A stretch of 64,000 nucleotides of DNA, from assembly GCA_021780755.1 (NCBI GenBank), contig JAJXYF010000029.1, positions 62,001-126,000 on the forward strand, written 5' to 3'. Below, one piece after another: positions 457-62,347 of the stretch. The notes under the pieces were generated by a model. That model searched no databases and was not told the DNA's origin. It saw nothing but the letters and a program-made list of their open reading frames with translations. This DNA comes from Deltaproteobacteria bacterium (GTDB lineage Bacteria > Desulfobacterota > Binatia > Binatales > Binataceae). The position numbers were made by a program, and so were the translations under genes. How positions within the stretch are numbered: position 1 is the first letter of the stretch; every line of letters starts with the position of its first letter.

Positions 457-617
457 GCGCCCACACCAGCTCTCATCTACGCGATCCGCAAGACCTGTCG
501 TCTTATTGCTCCCCCTCCCTTTTTGGAGGGCGCAGCCCGCATCTTTACCAAAGGGAAGCCTGAAACCTCGTGAGGTTTCAGAAAACTATAAGTTTTGAGC
601 TCCTCAACCACTCTCCC
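457..617 (+). repeat. Dispersed palindromic element, copy 1 (long form)
   Basis: This is one of five related elements in the window. In element orientation it has a head shared with copy 5 (tctcatctacgcgatccg), a small hairpin gggc-gca-gccc (about 529-539), a spacer ending gggaagcc, a 22-bp palindrome ctgaaacctc-gt-gaggtttcag at 560-581, and a tail agttttgag...ctcaaccactctccc. It is the only copy in front of a gene; the apparent start codon of the next gene lies in its tail. Confidence 0.85.
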
Positions 618-1752: not shown

Positions 1753-1779
1753 ACCCCCTCCGTCATCCTGACTCCTCCT

Positions 1780-1820
1780 CCGTCATCCTGAGCGGCTGCC
1801 GCGAAGGATCTCGCGCGGCC
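1780..1820 (+). repeat. GTCATCC...GAAGGATCTC dispersed motif
   Basis: The string ccgtcatcctgag...gcgaaggatctcgcgcggcc recurs in diverged form at 41582-41617 (cgtcatcccgaacgaagtgaaggatctcgtgcggcc). A partial extra ccgtcatcctga precedes it at 1760-1771, and ctcgcgcggccccc is repeated just downstream. Similar short strings are scattered in many environmental bacterial genomes. Function unknown. Confidence 0.5.
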
Positions 1821-1865
1821 CCCCGCGCGTTAAATGAAAGCCCTCGCGCGGCCCCCGCGCGCCAA

Positions 1866-1970
1866 TCTGTGGTCGCGGAATCCAAAACTGTAAGTTTTTC
1901 AGGAGACTGAAACCTCAATGAGGTTTCAGACTTCCCGTCTGTAAAGATACGGGCTCCGCCCTGTGAAAAG
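1866..1970 (-). repeat. Dispersed palindromic element, copy 2
   Basis: Read on the minus strand it contains agggcggagccc (hairpin with loop gga), atctttacagacgggaagtc, the palindrome ctgaaacctc-att-gaggtttcag (1907-1929 on the plus strand) and the tail agttttggattccgcgaccac. It lies after the phosphotransferase gene with its tail toward that gene's stop codon. Confidence 0.85.
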
Positions 1971-2088
1971 TGGTCATCGAATCAACTTTCTAGAACCCTG
2001 CGGCTACGCGCCGCGTTCCTCGACCACACTCTCTTTTTCCACGACGCTTCCCCCCTCGACTGCTCATCCGTACCACTCGCGCAACCAT

Positions 2089-2147
2089 GAAATCCTTCAT
2101 CCATTTTGAGTGAACTCTTTCACCCATTTTGGGGAAATCCTTCACGG
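2089..2147 (+). repeat. Iteron-like direct repeats beside parS
   Basis: Three direct units begin at 2089, 2112 and 2134: gaaatccttcatccattttg, gaactctttcacccattttg and the partial gaaatccttcacgg. The period is 22-23 bp, about two helical turns. They end 18 bp before the parS palindrome. This spacing resembles iterons or tandem operator sites, but the binding protein is unknown. Confidence 0.6.
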
Positions 2148-2164
2148 CAAACAGACGGCGGCAA

Positions 2165-2180
2165 TGTTTCACGTGAAACA
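2165..2180. other. parS: parS centromere site (ParB-binding)
   Basis: The 16-bp sequence tgtttcacgtgaaaca is a perfect palindrome and matches exactly the chromosomal parS consensus known from Bacillus and many other bacteria. ParB binds it to segregate the origin region. It lies in a gene-poor stretch between the phosphotransferase and acnA. parA, parB, gidB and dnaA are not in the window. Chromosomal parS sites usually cluster within a few percent of the chromosome around oriC, so this window may be origin-proximal. Confidence 0.85.
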
Positions 2181-2389
2181 TCTTCGCCTCTCCTTCGCTT
2201 TTGAAATACCCTGATTTCGCCCGCAAACGCCCCTCTTTATGCTCCAGCGTTTCGCCACCCTCCGCGCCGAACGGCCCCTTCCTCCGGCAACGCGAGCGTC
2301 CACCGCCGAGAACACGCTGGATGAAGCCCTTCGCGGAATCCGCTGACCTGCGCCGGAGGCCGTTGGTCGCACCGGCGCGCGGCAGTTCT
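2181..2389. other. Intergenic, no gene seen
   Basis: The stretch between parS and element copy 3 holds only short overlapping frames on both strands with arginine/serine-rich translations typical of non-coding high-GC DNA. I see no further parS, DnaA box, terminator or RNA. Confidence 0.4.
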
Positions 2390-2485
2390 CGCAGGGCGAA
2401 GCCCGCATCTGTACAGATGGGAAGTCTGAAACCTTTATAAGGTTTCAGCAGACTTTAAGTTTTGAGTTCCTCGACCACTCTCCCG
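2390..2485 (+). repeat. Dispersed palindromic element, copy 3
   Basis: It contains agggcgaagccc (hairpin with loop gaa), atctgtacagatgggaagtc, the palindrome ctgaaacctt-tat-aaggtttcag at 2426-2448 and the tail agttttgagttcctcgaccactctccc. The inner C-G pair of the other copies is replaced by T-A on both arms, so pairing is kept. The tail faces the stop codon of acnA 18 bp away. Confidence 0.85.
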
Positions 2486-2502
2486 TTCTCTCTCGCGTCC
2501 GG

Positions 2503-5268
2503 CTACGCGCGCAGGAGTTCGCGCAGCACGTAGGGCAGCACGCCGCCGTGGCGGATGTACTCGACGTCCTCGGGCGTATCGATGCGCGCGAGCACCTCGA
2601 ACTCCTTGACCTGGCCGCCGTGCTCCGCGCGCACTGTGAGTATCTGGCGGGGCTTGAGTCCGGCTTCGAGCCCAACGATTGAATAGATCTCGCGGCCGGT
2701 CAGCCCGAGGCTCTCACGGCTTTGCCCTTTGACGAATTCCAGCGCGAGCACGCCCATCCCGACCAGGTTGCTCCGATGAATCCGCTCGAAGCTCTCGGCG
2801 ATCACCGCGCGCACGCCGAGCAGTTGGGTGCCCTTGGCGGCCCAGTCGCGCGAGGAGCCTGAGCCGTATTCCTTGCCCGCGATCACGATCAGCGGCACAC
2901 CGTCTTTGCGGTATTGCTCGGAGGCCTCGAAGATCGAGCTGGTGGCGCCGTCCGGCAGATGAGCGGTGACGCCGCCCTCGACGCCGGGCACGAGGAGGTT
3001 CTTGAGCCGGATGTTGGCGAAGGTCCCACGCACCATCACTTCGTGGTTTCCGCGCCGCGCGCCATAGGAATTGAAGTCCTTGGGCGACACGCCGTTGGCG
3101 ACCAGGTAGCGGCCCGCGGGACCATCGGCGGCGATCGAGCCGGCCGGCGAGATATGATCGGTGGTTACGCTGTCGCCGAGCATCGCGAGCACCCGCGCGC
3201 CGTTGATATCGGTGACCGGCGCGGGCGTCGGGCCGACGCCGTCGAAGAACGGCGGCGCCTTGACGTAGGACGACTGCTCCTCCCAGCGAAAGAGCTCGCC
3301 GTCGGGGATCTTGAGTCCGCGCCAACGATCGTCGCCCTCGAAGACGCTGGCGTACTCGGCCTTGAACATCGTTGCATCGACCGCCCCGGCCATCGCGGCG
3401 GTAATCTCCTGCGCACTCGGCCAGATGTCGCGCAGGAAGACGGCCTTGCCCTCGGCGTCGCGCGCGAGCGGTTCGACGTTGGGGTCGAAGTCCATCGTGC
3501 CGGCGATCGCGTAGGCCACCACCAGCGGCGGGGAAGCGAGGTAGTTGAAGCGCACGACCGGGTTGATGCGGCCCTCGAAATTGCGGTTGCCGCTCAGGAT
3601 GGCGCTGGCGACAAGGTTGCCGGTCTTCACCGCACCCGCGATCGGCTCGGCGACCGGGCCGCTGTTACCGATACAGGTGGTGCATCCGTAGCCCACGAGG
3701 TTGAAGTGGAGCTGATCGAGATAAGTCGTCAGGCCGGCGCGCTTGAGATACGCCGTCACCACTTTCGAGCCGGGGGCGAGGCTGGTCTTGACCCACGGCT
3801 TGACGGAGAGGCCGCGCTCGACCGCCTTTTTGGCGAGCAGGCCGGCGGCGATCAGGACGGAGGGATTGGAGGTGTTGGTGCAACTCGTGATCGCGGCGAT
3901 CACCAGCGAGCCGTGCCCGAGCGTAAACTTCGCGCCGTCCATCTCGACCGCGACCGTATGGCCGAGGGGGCCGAGGTCGGCCGCTGGGATCCGCTCATGC
4001 GGCGCCACCTTCGGATTGCCGCCTTCCGCGGTCCAGCTCTCGACTAATTTCCCGGCAACGCTATGGTGACTGCCGACTTCCTTGGCGAGCTCGCGCCGGA
4101 ACTCGCGCTTGGAGTCGGCGAGCGTGACGCGATCCTGCGGGCGCCGCGGACCGGCGAGGCTCGGCACGACGTCCTTCAGATCGAGTTCGAGCGTATCGGT
4201 GAAGATCGGGTCGGGCGCGCCGGGCAGGCGAAACAGCCCCTGCGCCTTGCAGTAGGCTTCGACCAGCTTGACCTGTTGCTCGGTGCGTCCGGTGAGGCGC
4301 AGATAGGCGAGGGTCTGATCGTCAACCGGGAAGAAACCAATCGTCGCGCCGTACTCGGGTGACATATTTCCGATGGTCGCGCGATCGGCCACGCTCAGGC
4401 TCGCGATGCCGTCGCCGAAAAATTCCACGAACTTGTTGACCACGCCCTTCTTGCGCAGCATCTGGGTGACGGTGAGGACGAGGTCGGTGGCGGTCGCGCC
4501 GGGATGGAGGCTGCCCTTGAAGCGAAAGCCGATCACCTGCGGAATCAACATCGGGCTGGAGCGCCCGAGCATCGCGACCTCCGCCTCGATACCGCCGACG
4601 CCCCATCCGACCACGCCCAGGCCGTTGATCATGGTGGTATGCGAATCGGTGCCGAAGACGCTGTCGGGATAGGCTTCGCCGTCGCGCGAAGTGAAAACCA
4701 CCGGCGCGAGGTATTCGAGATTGACCTGATGCACGATGCCGGTGTCGGGCGGCACGACGCGGAAATTATCGAAGGCGCGCTGGCCCCAGCGCAGGAACTG
4801 GTAGCGCTCCTGGTTGCGCTCGAACTCAAGGCCGGCGTTGTGCGCGAACGACGACGCCTGTCCGTAGGAATCGACCTGGACGGAATGGTCGATGACGAGG
4901 TCGGCGGGCTGGAGCGGATTGATGCGGGCGGGGTCGCCGCCGAGCTTGCGAATCGCATCACGCATCACGGCCAGATCGGCGACCACCGGCACGCCGGTGA
5001 AATCCTGGAGGAGTACGCGGGCCGGCATGAAGGAAAATTCCTGCTCGCCGTCCTTGGCGCCGTTCCAGCGCGCGAGCGCCTCGACGTGTGCGGCAGTGAC
5101 GTTCTCCCCGTCCTCGCGGCGGAGCACGTTTTCGAGCAGCACCTTGATCGAAAAGGGCAAACGGTCGAGGGTGAAGCCGCGTTTGGCGAGGGCCTCGAGT
5201 GCGTAAATCGTGTAGGTGGTGCCGGCGGCGTCGAGCGCGGTGCGCGCTCCAAAACTGTTCTTGGTCAT
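2503..5268 (-). CDS. acnA: Aconitate hydratase AcnA
   Basis: A 921-residue aconitase of the AcnA/IRP type, close to the family's usual ~900. It isomerises citrate and isocitrate in the TCA cycle and needs a 4Fe-4S cluster. The cluster cysteines are visible in [15 protein letters not shown] and [11 protein letters not shown]; the N-terminus has the family's [12 protein letters not shown], and the C-terminal swivel domain carries [15 protein letters not shown] with the active-site Ser/Arg. The ATG at 5268 is the natural start. It stands alone, followed by element copy 3. AcnA-type enzymes are often stress-stable, and some also bind RNA when they lose the cluster; nothing here shows that directly. 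Confidence 0.97.
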
Positions 5269-34685: not shown

Positions 34686-34792
34686 GCCCTTTTAGCAGGG
34701 CGAAGCCCGCATCTTTGTATATGAAGTTTGAAACCTCTATGAGGTTTCAGTTTCTTGAAGGTTAATGCTCCGCGCTCCGCGACCACTCCCCT
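34686..34792 (+). repeat. Dispersed palindromic element, copy 4
   Basis: It contains agggcgaagccc (loop gaa), atctttgtatatgaagt, the near palindrome ttgaaacctc-tat-gaggtttcag at 34728-34750 (outermost pair T-G, a wobble) and the tail gctccgcgaccactcccc. It lies between rnpB and the Zn-ribbon gene with its tail toward the latter's stop codon. Confidence 0.85.
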
Positions 34793-41362: not shown

Positions 41363-41523
41363 AGAAGTTGTTGAGGAGCGCAAAACTTTTGGTTTTCTCT
41401 GAAACCTCATAAGGTTTCAGGCTTCCCTTTGGCTAAGGATGCGGGCTTCGCCCTGTAAAAAGGCAGGGATCAATGAAGACGATAGGTCATACGGATCGCG
41501 TAGATGAGACCTGCCGTGGGCGC
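41363..41523 (-). repeat. Dispersed palindromic element, copy 5 (long form)
   Basis: On the minus strand it has the same head as copy 1 (tctcatctacgcgatccg), agggcgaagccc (loop gaa), atccttagccaaagggaagcc, the palindrome ctgaaaccttatgaggtttcag (41399-41420 on the plus strand; inner pair T-G, a wobble) and the tail agttttgcgctcctcaacaac. It starts at the gshB stop codon, tail first. Confidence 0.85.
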
Positions 41524-61075: not shown

Positions 61076-62347
61076 TCAGGTGGCGACCTTGAGTTGCGTA
61101 AACATGTGGCCGAGCTTTTCCTTCTTGGTGCGCAGGTAGTCGATGTTGCCGACGTGCGGCGCGACCTCGAGCGGCACTCGTGTGACCGTGACCCCGTAGC
61201 GCTGCAGGCTTTCTATTTTGTGCGGGTTGTTGGTCAGCAGGCGGACTTCGCCGATGCCGAAGTCGCGCAGAATCTGCGCGCCGATGCCATAGTCGCGCAA
61301 GTCGTCCTTGAAGCCCAATTCGAGGTTCGCCTCGACCGTATCGAGTCCTTGATCCTGCAGCGCGTAGGCCTTGATTTTGTTTCCGAGGCCGATGCCGCGG
61401 CCCTCCTGATGGAGGTAGATGATCACGCCGGCATCCGCGGCCATTATTTGTTGGATGGAGATCGCGAGCTGCTCGCCGCAGTCGCAGCGGTTGGAGCTGA
61501 AAACGTCGCCGGTCAGGCACTCGGAATGCAATCGCACCAGCGCCGGGCGGCCGCTGCCGACGTTGCCCTTGACCAGCGCGAGATGCTCGCGCCCATCGAC
61601 AATATTGCGAAAGACGATGGCTTGCAGCTCACCGTCGGGCAGCGTGAAGCGGCTCTCGCCGACCCGCTGAACGAGAATTTCGTTGGTCAGGCGATGGGAG
61701 ACGAGGTCGCTGATAAAGACCAGGGGCAGTTCGTAAGTGGCGGCAAACTCGCGCAGTTCGGGCAGACCCGCGGCTTCGCCGTCTTCGCGAAGAATCGCAC
61801 AGAGCGCCGCCGCCGGACGCATCCCGGCGCTGCGCACAAGATCGACCGCACCTTCGGCGCGTCCCATCCGCATCATGACACCGCCGCTCAGCGCCATCAG
61901 AGGCAGCACATGGCCCGGCATCACGAGGTCTTCGGGGCCGGATTTGTCGGCGGCAAGGACTCCGATTGTCATCGAACGATCGGCGGCGGAGATGCCGGTA
62001 GTCACGCCCTCGCGCGCCTCGACCAGCGCCCCGGCCTGCTCGACCATATCGCCGCCGAGGCTCGACGGTACCAACGGGATACCAAGTTCGCGCAGGCGCT
62101 TTTCGGGCAGCGCGACCGAGACCACGCCGCGCCCCTGACTCACCATGAAATTCACGTGTTGCGGAGTAACTTTCTCCGCCGCCATCACGAGGTCGCCCTC
62201 GGCGTGATCGCTGTCGTCGGAAACCAGCACGACCATCTGCGCGGCGCGAATCTGACTGAAGGCGTCTTCCAAAACCGTTGCGGGCACTTGTTTCACTCTC
62301 CGAAGGTTAATCTTATCACCGCGATCGGGAAGCGCAAATTCCTTCAC
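61076..62347 (-). CDS. ribBA: 3,4-dihydroxy-2-butanone-4-phosphate synthase / GTP cyclohydrolase II fusion
   Basis: About 400-423 residues. N-terminal Rib[26 protein letters not shown]-like [11 protein letters not shown], then [11 protein letters not shown]-terminal Rib[21 protein letters not shown] (zinc cysteines), [18 protein letters not shown] and [16 protein letters not shown]. It supplies both starting branches of riboflavin synthesis. GTG 62347 is the longest start; GTG 62287, eight bases after GGAGAG, has the better ribosome site. It lies 14 bp after ribD. Confidence 0.95.

Follow-up and report, generated by a model that had tools for sequence, protein, structure and literature searches.

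The perfect 16-bp parS palindrome in the window (the whole 64,000-nucleotide stretch analysed here, positions 62001–126000 of contig C10 in the 3.91-Mb, 42-contig genome G000) is a true parS that has been misread as a marker of the replication origin; it is a member of a set of parS sites that are carried on a repeat and scattered through the genome. The reading that we prefer, with a probability of about 0.58, is that ParB truly nucleates at this site, which would belong, with 14 others, to a group of outlying parS spread by the repeat and kept perfect in their cores by selection. Several observations speak for this: there are 19 exact copies of the 16-mer and one ParB with RXXG residues, all 15 outlying sites are intergenic, their cores are perfect where their flanks have diverged, and scattered sites occur, in other repeats, in two further Binataceae genera. 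Against it, most of the sites lie at different places in relatives, the relative G004 has no parS between the two genes that flank the window's site, and many relatives do without scattered parS (19 of 41 Binataceae genomes have no exact copy at all).

The parS site and its surroundings

The features around the site are collected in Table 1. The first-pass annotation of this DNA had recognized an exact 16-bp parS palindrome and had called a chance match very unlikely, and both statements stand. With up to three mismatches allowed the core is the only parS match in the window, and shuffled windows give 0.09 matches at that threshold (≤3 mismatches); the base composition of the 3.9-Mb genome predicts about 0.00016 exact copies of the 16-mer, and 19 were found, so chance is rejected as an explanation. 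The annotation's "gene-poor stretch" applies to the intergenic gap in which the site lies, between an APH-family kinase gene (595–1752) and an aconitase gene (2503–5268), and not to the neighborhood, which is otherwise coding. Its remark that the window lacks parAB holds for ParB, since the only ParB match of the genome is on contig C16. A phage or plasmid centromere was also considered and rejected: the extended palindrome around the core has no match in viral contigs, and window positions 1900–2490 match none of 72,556 plasmid records.

Table 1. Features in and around the parS-containing gap (window coordinates)
Feature	Position	Strand	Details
Perfect 16-bp parS core TGTTTCACGTGAAACA	2165..2180	none	exact sequence match
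Repeat-rich intergenic gap with the parS site	1753..2502	none	750 bp
Copy of the dispersed parS-bearing repeat	2135..2206	-	core-masked profile R1, E = 1.5e-15, G000:C10:64135-64206
Imperfect extended palindrome around the core	2157..2188	none	inverted repeat; outer arms GGCGGCAA / TCTTCGCC
Degenerate second parS TGTTTGCCGTGAAGGA	2138..2153	-	4 mismatches, 27 bp from the core
Companion palindrome GAGTGAACTCTTTCACCC (GGRTGAA-N4-TTCAYCC, 1 mismatch)	2108..2125	none	within a run of TTCAC/GTGAA half sites
Separate dispersed repeat (GAAACCT...AGGTTTC hairpin family)	1904..1972	-	left of the parS repeat
Inverted copy of the GAAACCT...AGGTTTC repeat	2393..2484	+	right of the parS repeat

ParB and the origin-side cluster

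Judged from its sequence, the family assignment of the G000 ParB is plain: it is the genome's one TIGR00180 match (178.8 bits), encoded on C16, and it has the Pfam domains ParB_N and HTH_ParB. Its nearest named relatives are encoded in MAGs assigned to Candidatus Binataceae (67 and 59% identity) and, in one case, to Deltaproteobacteria (65%); the family of G000 is accordingly taken to be the Binataceae. A phmmer alignment to 6t1f, with the positions counted by hand, places R, T, E, and G at Caulobacter positions 173, 179, 184, and 201, respectively. According to the available part of Jalal et al. (2020; PMC7383237), R173 and G201 are conserved in ParB and altered in Noc; by sequence, the G000 ParB carries the parS-type RXXG reading residues. 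A second TIGR00180 protein, which would be a Noc-type paralog, was not found in G000.

On C16, four exact parS and both of the genome's one-mismatch parS lie in the gaps between parA, rsmG, mnmG, and mnmE, adjoining parB. They form three pairs (L016:9012-12406) whose members are 107–111 bp apart, one pair in each parA-rsmG-mnmG-mnmE gap, and CGGCATTCCATGCCGCCGGTAC is common to all the pairs, following the first site of each. The parB gene that the first-pass annotation had asked for is thus present, and its proposal that the window carries an outlying chromosomal site is supported by this single ParB with parS-type residues and by the parAB/rsmG/mnmG/mnmE cluster that bears the same 16-mer elsewhere in the genome.

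Distribution of parS in the genome

G000 contains 19 exact parS, two copies that deviate at a single position, and one that deviates at two. The exact copies outside C16 number 15 and are distributed over 12 other contigs; the window's site (C10) and parAB are on different contigs. The first-pass annotation had placed the window near the replication origin and had proposed a genome-wide search for the 16-mer in the expectation of a cluster, and the result does not support that placement: 15 of the 19 matches lie away from the parAB contig, and even the tightest packing of C16 and the 12 contigs spreads the sites over 1.51 of 3.91 Mb (39% of the assembly), a minimal span for which the contigs were arranged as compactly as possible and were taken to be correct and to belong to one chromosome. 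The parS in the window is itself no evidence for proximity to the origin, because it belongs to a scattered set and is carried on a dispersed repeat. A dif consensus gave no terminus-like mark in any of seven genomes, and the contigs are thus unordered.

It is possible, if doubtful, that there is a very wide origin domain, with all of the sites in the origin-proximal half of the chromosome and a scatter that is only apparent because the contigs are unordered. The minimal span in G000, like that of 43–50% in the relative G012, would leave room for such a domain, since sites might then be missing from at least half of the genome, and the scattered parS of Bacilli are described in this way in the accessible text of PMC8357415. 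Nevertheless, the G000 span, although computed for the most compact order, still exceeds the B. subtilis case (∼0.75 Mb), and outlying sites that share a contig are 31–200 kb apart. Furthermore, C16 has no additional parS in its remaining ∼106 kb, and therefore the density of sites does not rise toward the cluster there.

All 15 scattered sites are intergenic, although 68% of the DNA there is coding according to a simple codon-score gene caller. The genes that flank them could be classified at 14 sites; eight are convergent pairs, six tandem, and none divergent.

The parS-bearing repeat

The window has its parS because the site rides on a dispersed repeat of ∼75 bp, copies of which contain 14 of the 15 scattered sites; the window's copy matches the 67-nt consensus over 57 bp at 93%. 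The repeat combines an extended palindrome around parS with a second, degenerate parS at a distance of 27 bp, and the element common to the 15 aligned outlying sites is approximately CTACACGAAGGAGAGGCGAAGA - parS - TCTTCGCGGTCTGTTTGCCGTGAAAT. Five to eight of the eight outer-arm pairs are complementary across the 15 copies (five in the window's copy), the full 32-bp palindrome is present in some of the others, and the C33 copy keeps seven of eight outer pairs in spite of altered arms. For the second parS, +27 is the best-fitting of the spacings 24–31 in 14 of 15 copies, with two to seven mismatches to the consensus; in the C14 copy it is only two mismatches away from parS. Certain pairs of copies share up to ∼250 bp. 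Site L018 (C26:203858) has only the core and short arms. The extended palindrome had no match in other species in a collection of genome contigs from which the genome's own record was possibly left out.

The core is identical at 16 of 16 positions in every scattered site, whereas pairwise identity in the 30 bp on either side averages 61% (left) and 68% (right). The whole genome was searched with a profile of 14 of the 15 copies (L018 was left out) in which N stood in for the core. It found its 14 source copies, some of them on both strands, and the origin-cluster parS, but not L018; every match with E < 0.01 contains parS, so that this search of G000 gave no repeat copy with a decayed core, although the source copies had been chosen for having a core. 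Two weak matches without parS (C6 and C38:40144; E 0.28 and 0.58) were judged by eye to be chance.

Two conserved places in relatives accord with selection on the core. Where G000 contig C26 and G004 contig C22 have a site in common, the core is identical and the intergenic flanks can hardly be aligned. A second conserved place, which corresponds to none of the G000 parS loci, has parS in all six of the other genus members that were examined: the site is exact in G004, and in G001, G002, G003, G005, and G006 it is TGTTTCACGTGAAACG, one mismatch from parS. A companion-like GATGAAAT..TTCACCC adjoins parS in most of them, and the surrounding DNA is partly replaced. Contig G006:C88 was excluded as independent evidence, being 99.8% identical over its full length to G001:C43; G006 also has its own diverged copy of this region, so that the near-identity of loci L187 (G006:C88) and L189 (G001:C43) is probably due to cross-binning.

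Companion motifs and neighboring repeats

The palindrome GGRTGAA-N4-TTCAYCC has nine matches in G000 at ≤1 mismatch, and its reversed control has one. Eight of the nine have a scattered parS no more than 4.4 kb away (five within ∼112 bp and three farther off), and the ninth is near none. The exact palindromes at G000:C5:39868, C14:65037, and C30:24169 are 2.2–4.4 kb from scattered parS and outside the parS repeat. GTGAAA half sites are likewise enriched near the scattered sites (3.19 vs 0.34 per kb).

The GAAACCT/AGGTTTC hairpin repeat, which has a GC-rich tail, is present in five copies in the window (519–617, 34689–34750, and 41366–41462 in addition to the two in Table 1). Three of the five are away from parS, and kin of this repeat adjoin parS in the relative G070 as well.

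Scattered parS in other Binataceae

An exact parS is present in 57 of 148 genomes of the class. Counts above three are confined to the Binataceae (41 of the 148 genomes); elsewhere in the class no genome exceeds three. Six of the 41 have eight or more exact copies: G070 (27), G000 (19), G012 (11), G026 (9), G004 (8), and G020 (8). The outlying loci were read in G012 (12 loci), G026 (8), G070 (15), G004 (5), and G000 (15); G020 and the others were only counted.

Turnover of the sites is considerable. In G004, which belongs to the same genus as G000, the matching parts of the kinase and aconitase genes are ∼50 bp apart with no parS between them, where G000 has 750 bp of repeats; judging from these two sequences, the window's parS was therefore gained in G000 or lost in its sister. 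(In the five other members of the genus, the kinase and aconitase matches lie on separate contigs.) Of the five scattered sites in G004, one has a counterpart in G000, and G012 and G026, which share a genus with each other, have at most one site in common. With most sites differing in position between relatives, none of them is indispensable by itself.

The repeats that carry the outlying parS of G012, G026, and G070 differ for the most part from those of G000. In G012 (L131–L142) 9 of the 12 loci have a DnaA-box-like TATCCACAGG (≤1 mismatch) no more than 150 bp away vs none in 104.6 kb of background, often with two motifs per site, and 6 of the 12 sites lie between divergent genes. The minimal span in this ∼3.4-Mb genome is 43% for exact sites and 50% with one mismatch allowed, the latter set including a one-mismatch site just inside a called gene. 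The G026 sites are accompanied by TGTTTCACGCGAAACA arrays with GGTGAAA half sites. Those of G070 occur as doublets 29–33 bp apart with a TTCAGTTCAGGAGAACGAAAC flank; tight doublets of perfect parS at this distance were seen at L170, L171, L173, L175, L179, and L183. By sequence, the scattered pattern seems to have arisen several times in the Binataceae.

These comparisons bear on two further explanations. The first, which we consider unlikely, is hitch-hiking, in which a short mobile or self-amplifying intergenic repeat captured parS by chance, so that ParB may bind the copies and the scatter has no role in the cell. The 75–250 bp of flanking repeat common to the copies, the turnover of site positions between species, and the abundance of other repeats in the intergenic gaps would all fit such a history. 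It accords poorly with 15 of 15 perfect cores in diverged flanks and with the lack of any core-less copy in the core-masked search, and chance capture would have had to recur, as the repeats that hold scattered parS differ largely among the three genera that have them. In addition, no REP-type Y1 transposase gene (PF01797) was found in any of the 13 Binataceae genomes searched; one genome of another family searched alongside gave 18 matches.

The second, which is quite improbable, is that the sites act mainly in local regulation or titration, with ParB, DnaA, or another dimeric protein working on nearby genes, and that they do not serve segregation. The TATCCACAGG motifs and divergent genes of G012 point in this direction, as does the presence of GGRTGAA-N4-TTCAYCC near the G000 sites. 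In G000 itself, however, none of the 14 classifiable sites is between divergent genes, and no DnaA box, not even one with a single mismatch, lies within 150 bp of any of the 15 loci.

Proposed mechanism and significance

If the scattered sites are indeed ParB nucleation sites, a short intergenic repeat would have multiplied and so spread parS over the chromosome, with selection keeping the 16-bp cores perfect. The single ParB would bind each core as a dimer and, by analogy with the ParABS literature, would load as a CTP clamp and spread over the nearby DNA. There would then be many loading points for ParB, and probably for SMC, along the chromosome besides the origin cluster, and the scattered sites may have a role in compaction or segregation. 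More speculatively, and with considerable doubt on our part, the Binataceae may repeatedly have made a single-centromere chromosome many-centered, with parS-seeded repeats and lineage-specific partner motifs (DnaA-box-like in one genus, GGRTGAA-N4-TTCAYCC in another, and tight parS doublets in a third) providing ParB/SMC loading stations along both arms.

In model bacteria parS lies near the origin, and strong sites that are moved or added are disfavored or disturb the folding of the chromosome. The Binataceae, with perfect parS over at least 39–50% of the chromosome, are thus a natural experiment on ParB loading far from the origin. The accessible parts of two papers give particulars: extra parS clusters are disfavored at mid-arm in Caulobacter (PMC5815017), and far-apart strong parS in B. 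subtilis disturb chromosome folding with little effect on growth (PMC8357415). The latter text also describes widely scattered parS in some genomes, restricted to few lineages and seemingly counterproductive for avoiding SMC collisions. Scattered parS are therefore already known from a few lineages, and what seems new here is a scattered set that is repeat-borne; no report of such spread was found in the text available to a literature search for which subscription papers were mostly out of reach. Repeat amplification is a concrete route by which centromere sites can spread, with different repeats in different genera.

Comparison with known systems

Noc is a ParB-fold protein whose NBS sites are distributed over much of the chromosome. 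G000 differs in that its sites are parS rather than NBS and its ParB has R and G at the two diagnostic positions; membership in the Noc/NBS system is rejected on the nature of the site and on the single TIGR00180 match with RXXG residues. REP/BIME-type elements resemble the G000 repeat in being short, palindromic, intergenic, and present in many copies, but here the palindrome is parS. A REP mobilized by a RAYT/Y1 protein was rejected as well: the repeat is dispersed, intergenic, and palindromic, but the same 13 Binataceae genomes lack a Y1/RAYT transposase.

The half-parS of Pseudomonas aeruginosa, as described in the available part of PMC10419367, are also ParB-related sequences distributed over the chromosome, and the enrichment of GTGAAA half sites in G000 recalls them; they are 7-bp half sites, however, whereas G000 has full 16-bp palindromes. 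B. subtilis (eight parS over ∼0.75 Mb) and other Bacilli share with G000 the presence of several parS far from the cluster (PMC8357415, in part), but in G000 the parS are carried by copies of a repeat and extend over no less than 39% of the assembly, and the accessible portion of that paper mentions no repeat. Finally, G000 resembles Caulobacter and most bacteria in having the identical 16-mer, one ParB/ParA pair, and an origin-proximal type of parS cluster at parAB-rsmG-mnmG-mnmE (C16); it differs from them in having 15 further perfect sites elsewhere, 14 of which are on copies of the repeat.
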